The position numbers and the translations under genes are program-made. Shown here one piece after another: positions 27,479-62,188 of a stretch of DNA of 62,188 nt. Where the stretch lies: positions 1 to 62,188 of the forward strand of contig NZ_STFG01000019.1 in the NCBI RefSeq assembly GCF_004833285.1, written 5' to 3'. Under the pieces are notes generated by a model. That model saw only the letters and a program-made list of their open reading frames with translations. It ran no database searches and was not told the origin of the DNA. Position 1 is the first letter of the stretch; each line of letters starts with the position of its first letter. This DNA comes from Lampropedia puyangensis. GTDB taxonomy: Bacteria > Pseudomonadota > Gammaproteobacteria > Burkholderiales > Burkholderiaceae_C.

Positions 27479-28657
27479 TCACAAACGCTCAAGAATGGTG
27501 ACGTTGGCCATACCGCCGCCTTCGCACATGGTTTGCAAACCCCAGCGCTGGCCACGCGAATGCAGCGCGTGCACCAACGTTGCCATCAGCTTGGCACCAG
27601 ATGCCCCTAACGGATGACCCAATGCGATGGCCCCACCATGGACATTGAGTTTTGCAGGGTCTGCATCCAACGCCTGCAGCCATGCCAGGGGCACCGCAGC
27701 AAACGCTTCGTTGACTTCGTAGAGATCGATATCGGTCAAACGCATGCCCGCCTTTTGCAAAGCACGCTGCGTCGCCGGGATAGGGGCTTCGAGCATGATG
27801 ACCGGATCATGCCCCAGCACTGTCATGTGGTGAATACGCGCCAATGGCTGCGCCCCTAAAGCTTTCAGGCCACGCTCATTCACAATTAACACGCCACTGG
27901 CCCCATCGCACACTTGACTGGCATTGGCCGCAGTGGTCACGCCCCCTTCTTGCAATAGCTTCACGTTGGCGATGGCCTCCAGCGTGGCGTCAGGGCGCAA
28001 ACCTTCATCTTGGGTGTGCCATTGCCCGCTCACTTGGCCTTGAGCATCGCGCATGGCAATCGGCACGATTTCATTTTTGAAAACCCCGGTCTGCGTGGCA
28101 GCAACGCCCTTTTGATGGCTTTGCAGGGCAAAAGCATCGAGCTGCTCTTTATGCAAACCGTATTTGTGCGCCACCATTTCTGCGCCCACAAACTGGCTGA
28201 AATCTTGCGCACCATAGCGCTCCTGTATCGCCGGACTTTGGTAGTAGCCCATGTCCGCTTTGCGCGGCAACACCATGGGACTGCCCATGGGCACACGGCT
28301 CATGGATTCCACACCAGCAGCGATCACCACATCCATCACCCCTGACATGACCGCCTGGGCCGCAAAGTGAATGGCTTGTTGCGACGAACCACACTGCCGA
28401 TCAATGGACGTCCCCGGCACCGACTGGGGCAACTTGGAAGCCAGCACCGCGTTACGCCCTACGTTGGCGGCTTGCTCGCCAATTTGACTTACGCAGCCCA
28501 TGAACACATCCTCCACCAGTGCAGGATCCACGCTATTGCGATCGACCAAAGCATTGAGCACTTGCGCGGCCAAATCCACCGGGTGCCAACCGGAAAGACG
28601 CCCGTTTCGTCGCCCGCCTGCAGTGCGTACTGCATCCACGATGTATGCCTGATGCAT
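27479..28657 (-). CDS. Acetyl-CoA C-acyltransferase (thiolase)
   Basis: A 392-residue type II thiolase. The nucleophilic Cys lies in SIDRQCGSSQQAIHFAAQ (about residue 92), the catalytic His in GGAIALGHPLGASGAK (about 348), and the second Cys in QTMCEGGGMANVTI (about 378). It cleaves 3-ketoacyl-CoA to acetyl-CoA or condenses two acyl-CoAs. The ATG at 28657 follows AAGGAGACAGTG; the frame upstream to 28756 is not needed. The crotonase follows 43 bp downstream. The leader upstream holds a long perfect hairpin and then a DnaA-box-rich stretch. Degradative thiolase is the likely role given its neighbours. Confidence 0.93.
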   Translation of the reverse strand: MHQAYIVDAVRTAGGRRNGRLSGWHPVDLAAQVLNALVDRNSVDPALVEDVFMGCVSQIGEQAANVGRNAVLASKLPQSVPGTSIDRQCGSSQQAIHFAAQAVMSGVMDVVIAAGVESMSRVPMGSPMVLPRKADMGYYQSPAIQERYGAQDFSQFVGAEMVAHKYGLHKEQLDAFALQSHQKGVAATQTGVFKNEIVPIAMRDAQGQVSGQWHTQDEGLRPDATLEAIANVKLLQEGGVTTAANASQVCDGASGVLIVNERGLKALGAQPLARIHHMTVLGHDPVIMLEAPIPATQRALQKAGMRLTDIDLYEVNEAFAAVPLAWLQALDADPAKLNVHGGAIALGHPLGASGAKLMATLVHALHSRGQRWGLQTMCEGGGMANVTILERL

Positions 28658-28682
28658 CACTGTCTCCTTGTCTTGTGTGTTG

Positions 28683-28710
28683 AGGTTTGGGGCGCGCGAG
28701 CCCCAAACCT
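28683..28710. repeat. Perfect hairpin in the thiolase leader
   Basis: AGGTTTGGGGC (28683-28693) pairs exactly with GCCCCAAACCT (28700-28710) around a 6-nt loop. No U-tract follows on either strand, so it is not a standard terminator. It lies 26 nt upstream of the thiolase start. Confidence 0.7.
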
Positions 28711-28799
28711 GCTGTTGGTTGTCGATCGTGCCAGAGTTAGCGAGCAGCGCTGTCACTTACGTGAAAACACAGCCTTGAACAACCCCACGCCAAAACGCA

Positions 28800-29035
28800 T
28801 AAGCTGTGGATAACGCATGTGATGGCTGTTGCATGGTTTGGGGATGACAACCCCCTTTGTGAAAGGGGCTCAAGTTATCCCCAATTCTGTGATCGACATT
28901 GCCCCTATCCACACACAGACTCGTCAATTTCGTAACATATTGATATAAATACAAAATAATTACTTATCCACAGAACGATGGCACCCTTATTACTATCATT
29001 ATTCTTTTATTTATTCAAAAAAAGAAATAGTCAGT
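28800..29035. other. DnaA-box cluster next to AT-rich DNA (candidate replication origin or DnaA-titration site)
   Basis: The gene-free stretch 28658-29097 contains two exact DnaA boxes, TGTGGATAA at 28805-28813 (reverse) and TTATCCACA at 28964-28972, and two one-mismatch copies, TTATCCCCA at 28875-28883 and CTATCCACA at 28905-28913. They sit within 170 bp and flank strongly AT-rich DNA (about 28924-28963 and 28984-29030). This is the composition of bacterial oriC regions, with a possible duplex-unwinding element. dnaA and dnaN are not in the window. Datum sites that titrate or reactivate DnaA have similar clusters. The role is inference. Confidence 0.5.
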
Positions 29036-29097
29036 AGACAACAGGACAACTGCACACAGCATGGGTTTTGATCGTTTCCAACAGGCAATGCCATCAT

Positions 29098-30549
29098 TCA
29101 CGTGGCACGTCCTCTCCTACAAGCCTGCATGCTCTTTGCCAATGCATTGAACACGGCAGGAGAGAGACTTTGGGCCACATTGAAACGCAAATAACCATTC
29201 GCTTGTTGTGAGGGGCTGAAGCTATTGCCCGGCGCAAGTAGCAGTTGATGGTGGTGCAGGGCGTACTCAGATAAGGTGGCCGCATCCAGTCCTTCTGGTA
29301 ACGCACACCAGACAAACATGCCTGCGCTAGGTTGGTGCCATGCATGGACGCCCAATTTCTCTAGCCGCTGCAAGGTCAACCCCATGGCATCTGCCAGTCG
29401 GGCTCGCAAGCTGTTCATGTGCCGCTGGTATGTGCCACTGCCCAGCAAGGTATGCAGCAGTTCCGCTGAAAAATGGCCTGATTCAAAGGCAATGGCCAGC
29501 TTCAAATCCACCAATTGTTCAACCCAATCAGGTCTGGTAGCGATATGCCCCACGCGAACCGAGGCCGATAAGGTTTTGGAAAAACTGCCAACGTACACCA
29601 CACGGCGCAAACCATCGAGCGCGGCATAGCGAGGGGCACGGTGGTTTTCAAAATCGGCAAACACATCGTCTTCAATGATGGTTAAGTCGTGTTGTGCCGC
29701 CAGCACCAAGACTTGGTGCGCAATCTCCACACTCAAACTCGCCCCGGTGGGGTTGTGCAGTGCGGCATTGGTGATGTACACACGTGGGCGGTGTTGGGCC
29801 AGGCACGCGGCCATGGCTTGTACATCAGGTCCGTGCGGGGTATAGGGAACACTCACTACATTCGCACGGTGGGCTCGCAACATTGCCTGAAAACTAAAGT
29901 AGCACGGGTCATCGACCAGCACCGTATCGCCCGGTTGCAGAAAGAACCGGCACAGTAAATCCACGGCTTGGGTGCTGGACTCGGTCAACATCAACTGTTC
30001 TGGCGCTACATGCATGCCACGCTCGCCCAAACGGTGGGCCAGCAGCTGCCGCAAAGCGGGGGAGCCTTGTGGCGTTCCATAGCCTGTTAACGGGGCCAAG
30101 GGTTTGCGTGAAACCGCGCGTAAAGCACGCCGGATTTCTTGCTCAGGCATCCACGAATCAGGCAACCAACCACAGCCTGGCTGCAAGCTGGTTGCAGGGG
30201 CCAACAAGGCTTGGCGTGTAACCCACACCGGATCGCTGGCAGGGCTCAAGCCCGCGGCAGTTTCGGCAACCTTAAATGGGCTGACTTGCCGCCCCACGTA
30301 AAAGCCAGAACCCGGACGCGATTCGATTACCCCTTCAGCCACTAAACGCGCATACGCCTCAACCACCGTAGAACGCGAGACGCCAAGGCTATCGGCTTGG
30401 ACACGAATGGAGGGAAGTTTTTTGCCAACGCACAAATGCCGCATTTGTATCCGCTGGCGAATGTCTTGCATGACTTCTTCCACGCGGGTAAGGGAGGCTG
30501 CGCTTGGGATGTTTTGTGGGACGCTTGCAAGAGGATCGGGCGATGCCAT
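29098..30549 (-). CDS. pdxR: PdxR-type MocR regulator (GntR helix-turn-helix plus aminotransferase-fold domain)
   Basis: A 483-residue regulator. The N-terminal 75 residues form a GntR winged helix (KKLPSIRVQADSLGVSRSTV, then AYARLVAEGVIESRPGSGFYV). The rest is a fold-type I aminotransferase domain that binds PLP, with the PLP Lys in YVGSFSKTLSASVRVG and NAALHNPTGASLS, ESSTQAVDLLCRF and YFSFQAMLRAH as further landmarks. Such proteins activate PLP synthesis when PLP is low. The gene is divergent from pdxS-pdxT with 230 bp between, the standard PdxR arrangement, and half-sites are visible in that gap. The ATG at 30549 is chosen; the frame reaches 30630. Confidence 0.92.
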   Translation of the reverse strand: MASPDPLASVPQNIPSAASLTRVEEVMQDIRQRIQMRHLCVGKKLPSIRVQADSLGVSRSTVVEAYARLVAEGVIESRPGSGFYVGRQVSPFKVAETAAGLSPASDPVWVTRQALLAPATSLQPGCGWLPDSWMPEQEIRRALRAVSRKPLAPLTGYGTPQGSPALRQLLAHRLGERGMHVAPEQLMLTESSTQAVDLLCRFFLQPGDTVLVDDPCYFSFQAMLRAHRANVVSVPYTPHGPDVQAMAACLAQHRPRVYITNAALHNPTGASLSVEIAHQVLVLAAQHDLTIIEDDVFADFENHRAPRYAALDGLRRVVYVGSFSKTLSASVRVGHIATRPDWVEQLVDLKLAIAFESGHFSAELLHTLLGSGTYQRHMNSLRARLADAMGLTLQRLEKLGVHAWHQPSAGMFVWCALPEGLDAATLSEYALHHHQLLLAPGNSFSPSQQANGYLRFNVAQSLSPAVFNALAKSMQACRRGRAT

Positions 30550-30650
30550 AGCGGTATGAAAACAAGAATAAAAATTGATTGTTGAATAGGCCAAAACCAT
30601 GCCAAGTCGACATTTGAGCAAGTCAATCACGCCGTCGCACGCCGCACCAA

Positions 30651-30693
30651 CTGTATGGTTGGATTATCAGTACAGTTTAGGCAAACCGTACTG
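30651..30693. promoter_or_regulatory. Putative PdxR binding array: two direct half-sites and one inverted
   Basis: CTGTATGGTT (30651-30660) and CAGTACAGTT (30668-30677) are direct repeats 17 bp apart, and AACCGTACTG (30684-30693) is the inverted copy (CAGTACGGTT on the other strand). The second and third form a near-perfect palindrome with a short spacer. Direct-plus-inverted half-sites between divergent pdxR and pdxS fit known MocR operators. Confidence 0.6.
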
Positions 30694-30779
30694 CCATCAT
30701 ATCTGGTCATCGCCCAGGCATTTTTCTACCATTGCCGCCTGTTTATCTTTCTCACTCATACCCGAATCGACTGGTTTTT

Positions 30780-31727
30780 ATGACTACTGCAGCAGCATCT
30801 TCAACGCCAGAAATGGCCCATTCCATCAGTACCGAACACCGTTTGAAGGTGGGGTTGGCAGAAATGCTCAAAGGCGGCGTCATCATGGATGTGTGCACGG
30901 TAGAGCAAGCCCATATTGCGCAAGCTGCAGGTGCATGCGCGGTGATGGCACTCGAACGCGTGCCGGCACAAATTCGGGCGCAAGGCGGTGTTGCGCGCAT
31001 GGCCAATCCGCGTTTGATTCAAGACATCATGGCTGCAGTCACCATTCCGGTCATGGCCAAAGCGCGTATAGGTCACTTTGCGGAGGCGCAGGTGTTGGCC
31101 CACCTGGGTGTTGACTTCATTGATGAGAGCGAGGTATTGACCCCAGCAGACGAAGTCCATCACATCGATAAGCAGGCATTCAAAACGCCTTTTGTGTGCG
31201 GGGCGCGCAATTTGGGCGAGGCACTGCGCCGCATCAATGAAGGCGCAGCGATGATCCGCACCAAAGGCGAAGCTGGTACGGGGGACGTTGTGCACGCGGT
31301 GAAACACATGCGCCAGATCATGGCCGACATTCGCGCATTAACTGCATTGCGTGCTGATGAACTGTACGTTGCCGCACGTGACTTGCGTGTACCGTTTGCA
31401 TTGGTACAGCAAGTGGCCAAAACAGGCGCATTGCCGGTCCCCAATTTTTCAGCAGGCGGTATTGCGACACCGGCCGATGCGGCATTGATGCGGCAATTGG
31501 GCGCACAGGCGATTTTTGTTGGTTCAGGCATTTTCATGAACGACGGGCAAATACTGGCCAGTGCGCAAGAAGCGGCCGAACGCGCCAATGCCATCGTCCG
31601 TGCCTGTACCTATTTTGATGATGCAGCCGTTGTGGCTGAATGCAGCGCGCAATGCCAAGGAGCTATGCGCGGACTGGCGGTTTCGACGCTCGAACCGACC
31701 GCGCTGCTGCAAACACGAGGGGACTGA
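30780..31727 (+). CDS. pdxS: Pyridoxal 5'-phosphate synthase lyase subunit PdxS
   Basis: PdxS (315 residues) condenses ribose 5-phosphate, glyceraldehyde 3-phosphate and ammonia into PLP as a TIM-barrel dodecamer with PdxT. Conserved segments are [40 protein letters not shown], the Lys-bearing [17 protein letters not shown] and [20 protein letters not shown]. The start is the ATG at 30780. The C-terminal tail after [12 protein letters not shown] is ordinary length. pdxT follows one base after the stop. Presence of PdxST means the organism uses the DXP-independent route. Regulation by the divergent PdxR is supported by the half-sites upstream. Confidence 0.97.
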
Positions 31728-31728
31728 G

Positions 31729-32352
31729 ATGTTGCCCACGCCTGCTACCTCCAACGTTCCTGTTGTCATTGGCATTTTGGCGTTGCAGGGCGCCTACGAA
31801 GCCCATGTCCGAATGCTGGACGTTATTGGGGCCAAGCATCGGCTGGTGCGTACCGCCGCAGACCTGCAAACCGTGGATGGGTTGATTGTGCCTGGCGGGG
31901 AATCCACCACCATGCTGCACCAATTGCAGCAGGAAGAGGGGTTGTGGCAAGCCTTACTGGCGTTTGTCCACCAATACCCATGCTTGGGCACCTGCGCTGG
32001 TTTGATTGTGTTGGCGCAACAGGTGCAGCCGCCTCAAGCAAGCCTGGGTGCGTTGCAGGTGCGCGTGCAGCGCAATGCCTATGGGCGCCAGCGTGAGTCT
32101 CGTGTTACCACGGCCAGCACAGCATTGGCTGGCGGGCCAATAGAAGTTGTTTTGATTCGCGCGCCACGCATCGTGGCTTGGGGGGCTGATGTGCAGATAC
32201 TGGCGCAGTGCGATGGCGATCCTGTGCTGGTGCAACAGGGCAGGGTGATGGGGTGCAGCTTCCACCCCGAATTGGGCAAAGATACGCGCATCCATACACG
32301 CTTATTGCAGGCCTGCGAGGCGGTGAAAATGAGCCCCGCGTCAGGTTCATGA
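31729..32352 (+). CDS. pdxT: Pyridoxal 5'-phosphate synthase glutaminase subunit PdxT
   Basis: PdxT (207 residues) hydrolyses glutamine and channels ammonia to PdxS. The triad is visible: nucleophilic Cys in LGTCAGLIVLAQQ, and His-Glu in GCSFHPELGKD. The glutaminase start GILALQGAYEAHVRML and IVPGGESTTMLHQLQQEEGL are diagnostic. The ATG at 31729 lies one base after the pdxS stop, so translation is coupled. No other start fits. Nothing unusual apart from a slightly long C-terminus. Confidence 0.96.
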   Translation: MLPTPATSNVPVVIGILALQGAYEAHVRMLDVIGAKHRLVRTAADLQTVDGLIVPGGESTTMLHQLQQEEGLWQALLAFVHQYPCLGTCAGLIVLAQQVQPPQASLGALQVRVQRNAYGRQRESRVTTASTALAGGPIEVVLIRAPRIVAWGADVQILAQCDGDPVLVQQGRVMGCSFHPELGKDTRIHTRLLQACEAVKMSPASGS

Positions 32353-62160: not shown

Positions 62161-62188
62161 ATGGTTTTCACCCCAAAACAGCGCAAAT

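Follow-up and report, generated by a model that had tools for sequence, protein, structure and literature searches.

An additional oriC-type module away from dnaA in Lampropedia puyangensis, and its homologs across the family

The window analyzed here is a 62,188-nucleotide contig (C11) of the draft genome of Lampropedia puyangensis (G000; 76 contigs, 3.97 Mb). Positions 28658-29097 form a 440-bp gap, correctly described as gene-free in the first-pass annotation, between the start of one gene and the stop of another. On the left lies an acetyl-CoA C-acyltransferase (thiolase) gene (27479-28657, minus strand, start set by a family match from residue 34), and on the right a gene for a MocR/PdxR-like regulator (29098-30630, minus strand; 254 bits, under the PdxR model cut-off of 320). 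The regulator gene is divergent to pdxS and pdxT (29098-32352 in all), belonging to the deoxyxylulose-independent vitamin B6 pathway, which is uncommon in betaproteobacteria.

The gap contains an element designated ori-L (28797-29013, plus strand), with two homologs standing in tandem on contig C25 of G000. It carries four DnaA boxes in 168 bp, two of which are exact copies of TTATCCACA on opposite strands. The exact inverted box (28805-28813, minus strand) is followed 159 bp on by the exact last box (28964-28972, plus strand), and between them lie two plus-strand boxes with one mismatch each, TTATCCCCA (28875-28883), inside a stretch GTTATCCCCAATTC common to both C25 copies, and CTATCCACA (28905-28913). 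An IHF-like site (28933-28945, minus strand; YAANNNNTTGATW on the plus strand) lies 18 bp ahead of the last box, with no mismatch to the IHF consensus. The last box is also the box of the basal unwinding system (BUS): a 14-bp spacer (28973-28986, plus strand) connects it to a DnaA-trio-like run, TTA TTA CTA TCA TTA TTC TTT (28987-29007, plus strand), whose fourth unit is broken, likewise in both C25 copies. The BUS assignment rests on the exact box, the 14-bp spacer and TTA TTA CTA, under a published rule that is permissive (a box with up to two mismatches, a spacer of up to 16 bp and at least three trio units, as given in PMC8287927).

The run falls within the least stable duplex of the region, a candidate DNA unwinding element (28986-29045, no strand assigned). 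Its stability is -64.1 kcal/mol for a 60-mer, where the mean is -87.7, and places it in the top 0.03% of the window; the 60-mer at ∼28986 ranks second least stable in the window among 60-mers at least 200 bp apart. The AT-rich DNA that had been noticed beside the boxes is thus real (23 G+C in the 100-mer at 28924), as is the cluster of two exact and two one-mismatch boxes within 170 bp. Across 1000 simulated sequences as long as the window (first-order Markov), three boxes per 170 bp was the maximum, reached once, and two exact boxes per 170 bp never occurred.

A DNA search of G000 with 28780-29100 gave two more matches, in tandem on C25 (549-768 and 1064-1283), which we refer to as ori-R, the main modules, identified by homology to ori-L. 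Their exact boxes (591/750 and 1106/1265) are 159 bp apart in each case, equal to ori-L. All three modules of ∼205 bp have in common an inverted box, GTTATCCCCAATTC, a last box, a spacer, a TTAYTACTA-type run and then AT-rich DNA, with two further boxes between the outer exact ones. Identity between ori-L and its C25 paralogs is 58-63%, so ori-L is not a fresh copy, and its trio run is weaker than theirs and does not satisfy a strict box-plus-trio pattern. Model R1, trained on six modules from G000 and the same-genus genomes G006 and G003, recovers all three G000 modules, each of them in the training set, at E < 1e-43 (ori-L, 151.6 bits, E 2.7e-44), and gives no match beyond them over G000 at E < 0.001. 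At C21:12133-12431 (L008:3134-3432), in AT-rich DNA that looks intergenic, two exact boxes are separated by 290 bp; the pair was considered as a module of the same kind and rejected, since model R3 (see below) has no match there even with E allowed up to 1.

Contig C25 carries genes for mnmG/gidA, rsmG, parA and parB (named from translations alone), and all three exact parS sites of G000; no exact parS lies near ori-L. In G006, the order on one 180-kb contig is C25 genes, a tandem pair of modules, and window genes, the last running from the right end of the window to its left. Because both gene sets stand there in series, C25 can be placed against the right end of the window, and ori-L is therefore ∼33.7 kb (plus the C11-C25 gap) from ori-R. 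The left end of C25 (L006:1-129) starts inside a reading frame whose end is presumably an IPTL-CTERM-like sorting tail, and a repeat-rich surface protein may lie behind the assembly break between C11 and C25.

The skew switch of G000 falls at this junction. The first-pass annotation took hand counts of 13 G/23 C and 23 G/11 C as in line with a switch near the cluster, without regarding skew as decisive; the counts are exact, but the C excess only weakens at 28.9 kb, and the cumulative GC-skew minimum of the window is at its right end (62179-62188, no strand assigned), where C25 joins by synteny. Over C11 followed by C25, the minimum is at 62,208, that is, at the junction. Raw skew is -0.085 to the left of ori-L, -0.024 between ori-L and ori-R, and +0.079 to the right of ori-R. 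At fourfold sites with strand correction, the change at ori-R is +0.184 (0.052 to 0.331), while that at ori-L ranges from -0.011 to 0.176 and is not significant. The intermediate plateau was considered as proof of two active origins and rejected, since the strand-corrected skew between the sites is not separable from that beyond ori-L. In a comparison of 12 other genomes, the skew of the interval between modules is intermediate in G181, G013, G142, G029, G027 and G006 and not intermediate in G166, G141, G031, G012 and G003; the twelfth, G001, has a left flank of only 2.6 kb. As the first-pass annotation had stated, dnaA is not near the cluster: it lies on C12. An origin at dnaA was rejected, as the gene has a single exact box upstream and skew is positive on both sides of it, in 12 of 12 2-kb steps across 24 kb.

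Other members of the genus show both retention and decay of modules. In G006, a module occupies the place orthologous to ori-L (C75:104185-104389; L018:6185-6389), between homologs of the MocR regulator and an enoyl-CoA hydratase, with no thiolase homolog in the G006 stretch around it. Of the boxes, whose conservation in relatives the first-pass annotation had proposed to check, three are kept there, at -159, -89 and 0 and hence spaced as in ori-L, together with an IHF-like site with one mismatch; the trio run has been lost, leaving boxes and IHF-like site only. The raw skew of G006, mirrored, is -0.062, +0.016 and +0.057 across the three intervals, with a local minimum 8.5 kb from ori-R, and the strand-corrected fourfold-site change is -0.145 (-0.216 to -0.070) at ori-R and ranges from -0.051 to 0.095 at ori-L. 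G003 has its local skew minimum at 965.4 kb. The copy placed much as in the window, at 971.6 kb, is ∼6 kb away, and the one on the gidA side, at 981.5 kb, is ∼16 kb away. The former is intact and lies ∼3 kb from the corresponding CoA-transferase gene, its neighbors being different, whereas the boxes of the gidA-side copy are degenerate. The better copy therefore differs between species. For each of the 16 modules examined from the genus, a search over 50 bp places the best IHF-like match 17-18 bp ahead of the last box, with zero mismatches in three modules, one in nine, two in three and three in one. In a tree of the genus modules, G004 and G009 have orthologous tandem pairs; the two copies of G003, by contrast, group together, as do those of G001 (support 0.99 and 0.98). 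This suggests repeated duplication or exchange between copies, for which a 220-bp tree is weak evidence.

The same module recurs throughout the family. Model R2 was built from 33 modules, with 14 family genomes among its training set, where matches follow by construction; the ori-L of G006, the module of G007, the second modules of G009 and G004 and the first of G169 were excluded from training. Positions that do not vary across the 33-module alignment occur in three places: the last box, the run of trios and the AA-N5-TG core of the IHF-like site. R2 matches ori-L, itself in the training set, at 28801-29003 (94.5 bits). Of the 150 family genomes sampled, 147 have R2 matches, or 133 of 136 once the 14 used for training are set aside. 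R2 also matches 60 of the 120 genomes sampled across the order, at least three being members of the family. Among the best 80 of 551 named loci (names mostly of Comamonadaceae type), the module was found in 10. Model R3, built from 20 modules with the genus itself excluded, finds ori-L at 28859-29003 (51.3 bits, E 1.1e-14) as its only match in the window, and gives the degenerate G006 ortholog 28.1 bits. The strict box-plus-trio pattern, which occurs in 21 of the 150 genomes and not in the control, misses ori-L and was rejected as too strict for a census, R2 being used instead. A looser local scan yields few false matches: it gave 36 matches against three in reversed sequences (1.37 Mb), and eight against one in the control for the named loci. 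The module at G169:C21:450 (L160:450) has an unusually long trio run, TTACTACTACTACTACTACTACTACTA.

The internal geometry is kept to differing degrees in 22 further modules, one of which (G002) is from the genus itself. The 159-bp spacing between inverted and last box is found in 10 of the 22, and the best IHF-like match, sought only 14-21 bp off the last box, is at 17-18 bp in 20. Matches with at most one mismatch occur at 18 bp in seven of the 22, compared with two at any other offset between 0 and 109 bp; the site is poor, with three or four mismatches, in eight.

Classical oriC is positioned directly behind dnaA. This is the arrangement in six genomes of other families, chosen for a match in the first 1.7 kb of contig C1, in which the R2 module is 3-109 bp behind the dnaA match; the module lies elsewhere in G042 and G214, two of the eight other-family genomes whose dnaA was checked. 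Within the family, module and dnaA were compared on one contig in 12 genomes. In 11 of these, the gap between dnaA and the closest of the listed modules is 16 to 630 kb (G149, G013, G181, G012, G141, G168, G166, G027, G107, G100 and G003). In the twelfth, G142, a circular contig would place one module (C1:4936249) beside dnaA, with another (C1:14534) 15 kb away. The matches of G088 and G108, 1.5-1.8 kb from the contig start, may likewise lie behind dnaA. The records G107:C1, G149:C1 and G168:C1 start at dnaA, with module and local skew minimum ∼140, 18 and 99-101 kb further on, respectively. Local cumulative skew minima were taken over stretches of 20 to 140 kb chosen around modules. Of 15 genomes from the family but not the genus, selected for strict-pattern or multi-module matches, 10 have this minimum no more than 3 kb from a module; the exceptions are G181, G012, G064, G029 and G169.

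Possession of more than one module is common. R2 finds one match in 98 of the 150 family genomes, two in 42, three or four in seven and none in three, so that 49 have two or more, a count that in some genomes includes second matches taken from the R2 score alone. Among the matches listed, which were scored with stricter filters and from which all inter-module distances derive, modules 2-46 kb apart on one contig occur in at least 23 genomes. The widest separation among them, 46 kb, is in G181 (C1:48962 and 95365, on opposite strands), a pair located on one large contig with very weak local skew. Two species of genus g19 (G027 and G166) each have a pair separated by 11.2-11.5 kb, and neither module of the pair has lost its unwinding element. 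First copies are 72% and second copies 70% identical between the species, against 49-58% for first with second; two distinct modules have been kept in parallel. The same comparison is weak in genus g23 (61% and 54% for like copies, 48-55% for unlike).

With a box cluster beyond chance, a BUS, an easily melted AT-rich tract and homology to the origins of relatives, ori-L is almost certainly an oriC-type module by descent. The first-pass annotation's proposal of a candidate origin holds as far as an origin-type element far from dnaA is concerned, and fails for a sole or main origin, with better-placed ori-R copies ∼34 kb away. The reading we favor, at a probability of roughly 0.55, is that ori-L is an additional copy of the family origin module, serving as a secondary or reserve start in a multi-module zone whose main site is ori-R. 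Module homology, box geometry, the placement of the IHF-like site, trio-like repeats, low duplex stability and the skew switch at ori-R form its direct basis. Ori-R is probably the usual start, and ori-L would be used less often. The odds that ori-L still works as an initiation site are about even. In the proposed mechanism, DnaA would bind at -159, where the inverted box lies, and at the inner boxes. A protein of the IHF type would bend the DNA that separates these from the last box, and DnaA would then spread from the last box across the spacer onto the trio repeats, so that the AT-rich tract melts and helicase can load; binding of DnaA and IHF at ori-L is predicted from the sites themselves. 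Counted against this reading are the skew switch at ori-R, also after strand correction, the lack of an exact parS near ori-L, the loss of trios in the G006 ortholog and the weaker trio run of ori-L. The poor IHF-like sites of many modules, the five family genomes with a skew minimum further from a module, the modules of G042 and G214 away from dnaA and the weak g23 comparison count the same way, as does the reduced skew between ori-L and ori-R, which is not significant after strand correction. A bolder version, in which ori-R and ori-L both fire in some cells or cycles, and the family has at least two working DnaA-dependent origins in a zone of up to tens of kb whose dominant module is gained, lost or switched by lineage, is conceivable, though we consider it doubtful.

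Of the other readings, DnaA titration is the main rival and a relic ranks third. Ori-L may be a DnaA-titrating or regulating site, either datA-like or a box reservoir near the origin, in which an old origin copy was kept for its boxes and IHF-like site; replicating early, 34 kb from ori-R, it would lower free DnaA after initiation, with its unwinding element idle. Such a role is suggested by the G006 ortholog, which keeps three boxes and the one-mismatch IHF-like site without trios and still matches R3 at 28.1 bits, and by E. coli, which has a region dense in boxes near its origin and titrates DnaA on its chromosome (PMC12371093). It is nevertheless unlikely for ori-L, though deserving of serious weight, as the spacer, trios and very unstable tract retained there are needless for a titration site. 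The datA- or DARS-like alternative of the first-pass annotation meets the same difficulty: a pure site of this type, with boxes and IHF but no unwinding element, would describe the G006 ortholog and fits ori-L less well, because ori-L has the box-spacer-trio arrangement and low-stability tract of the family module. Alternatively, ori-L may be a decaying relic, now without a role, of an origin that was duplicated or moved within the genus, a history in keeping with the loss of the unwinding repeats in the G006 copy, with the degenerate boxes of the gidA-side copy in G003 beside an intact second copy, and with the position of the G000 skew switch at ori-R. The boxes, exact IHF-like site and trio run of ori-L are intact despite only 58-63% identity to the C25 paralogs, and decay without function therefore appears quite improbable.

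That ori-L is instead the main or only chromosomal origin would agree with the weakening of skew at 28.9 kb, and with G003, where the better of the two copies, and the one nearer to the local minimum, is that in a similar position. It is very hard to reconcile with G000, in which the cumulative minimum is at the C11/C25 junction and the clear strand-corrected change is at ori-R; since two better-placed copies adjoin gidA-parAB and parS at the skew switch, ori-L is not taken as the sole or main origin. The location of ori-L upstream of the thiolase gene could also point to a DnaA-regulated promoter for the neighboring genes, or the boxes could have clustered by chance. The cluster was not reached in 1000 simulations and is homologous to origin modules throughout the family, leaving these explanations a practically negligible share.

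With what looks like a complete extra origin copy, this chromosome is a case in which to ask whether a bacterium can, in nature, keep more than one usable copy of its own origin on a single chromosome. The 49 of 150 genomes with multiple matches are natural test cases for origin choice, relocation from dnaA and DnaA titration, with intact and decayed module copies as built-in controls. Numbering chromosomes from dnaA, or assuming one oriC per genome, can misplace the replication start in this family. In a literature search that covered few subscription papers or preprints, we found no report of multi-module origins in this family and no test of the natural use of two homologous DnaA-type origins.

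Among known systems, ori-L resembles in sequence the module that other families in this order carry next to dnaA, and differs from the usual oriC in that it is not beside dnaA, not at the skew switch and one of three copies. The datA and DARS sites of E. coli are not known to contain an origin unwinding element. They share with ori-L the non-coding DnaA-box cluster and, in datA, an IHF site, but ori-L has an unwinding element, which its G006 ortholog does not. In bipartite origins, such as those of Bacillus subtilis and Helicobacter pylori, the sub-regions flank dnaA and share one unwinding region. Several DnaA-box clusters per origin zone are common to both arrangements; in bipartite origins the sub-regions are close together (PMC4403523), whereas here dnaA is on C12 instead of between the modules, each of which has its own trio run and unwinding element.

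The putative double origins of DoriC were predicted in a few bacteria from box clusters and neighboring replication genes, and it was stated in 2015 that there was no evidence for two functional origins used on one bacterial chromosome (Gao 2015, PMC4403523). The modules described here are likewise sequence-predicted, with two origin-like sites per chromosome, but unlike those few single cases they are homologous copies with their own unwinding elements and recur across the family. The fused single-chromosome Vibrio cholerae strains NSCV1 and NSCV2 are a natural case of two origins on one chromosome, both active in NSCV1 (PMC6284228); there, an oriC and a plasmid-type ori2 were joined by fusion, in contrast to homologous DnaA-type modules tens of kb apart. 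A close likeness is to an oriC with a BUS (PMC8287927), with which ori-L shares the box cluster, one strong box, a 14-bp spacer, a low-stability tract, an IHF-like site and, before the break, three trio units with a middle T on the plus strand. The element itself is thus a known one, an oriC module, and its multi-copy, widely spaced arrangement is the unusual part.
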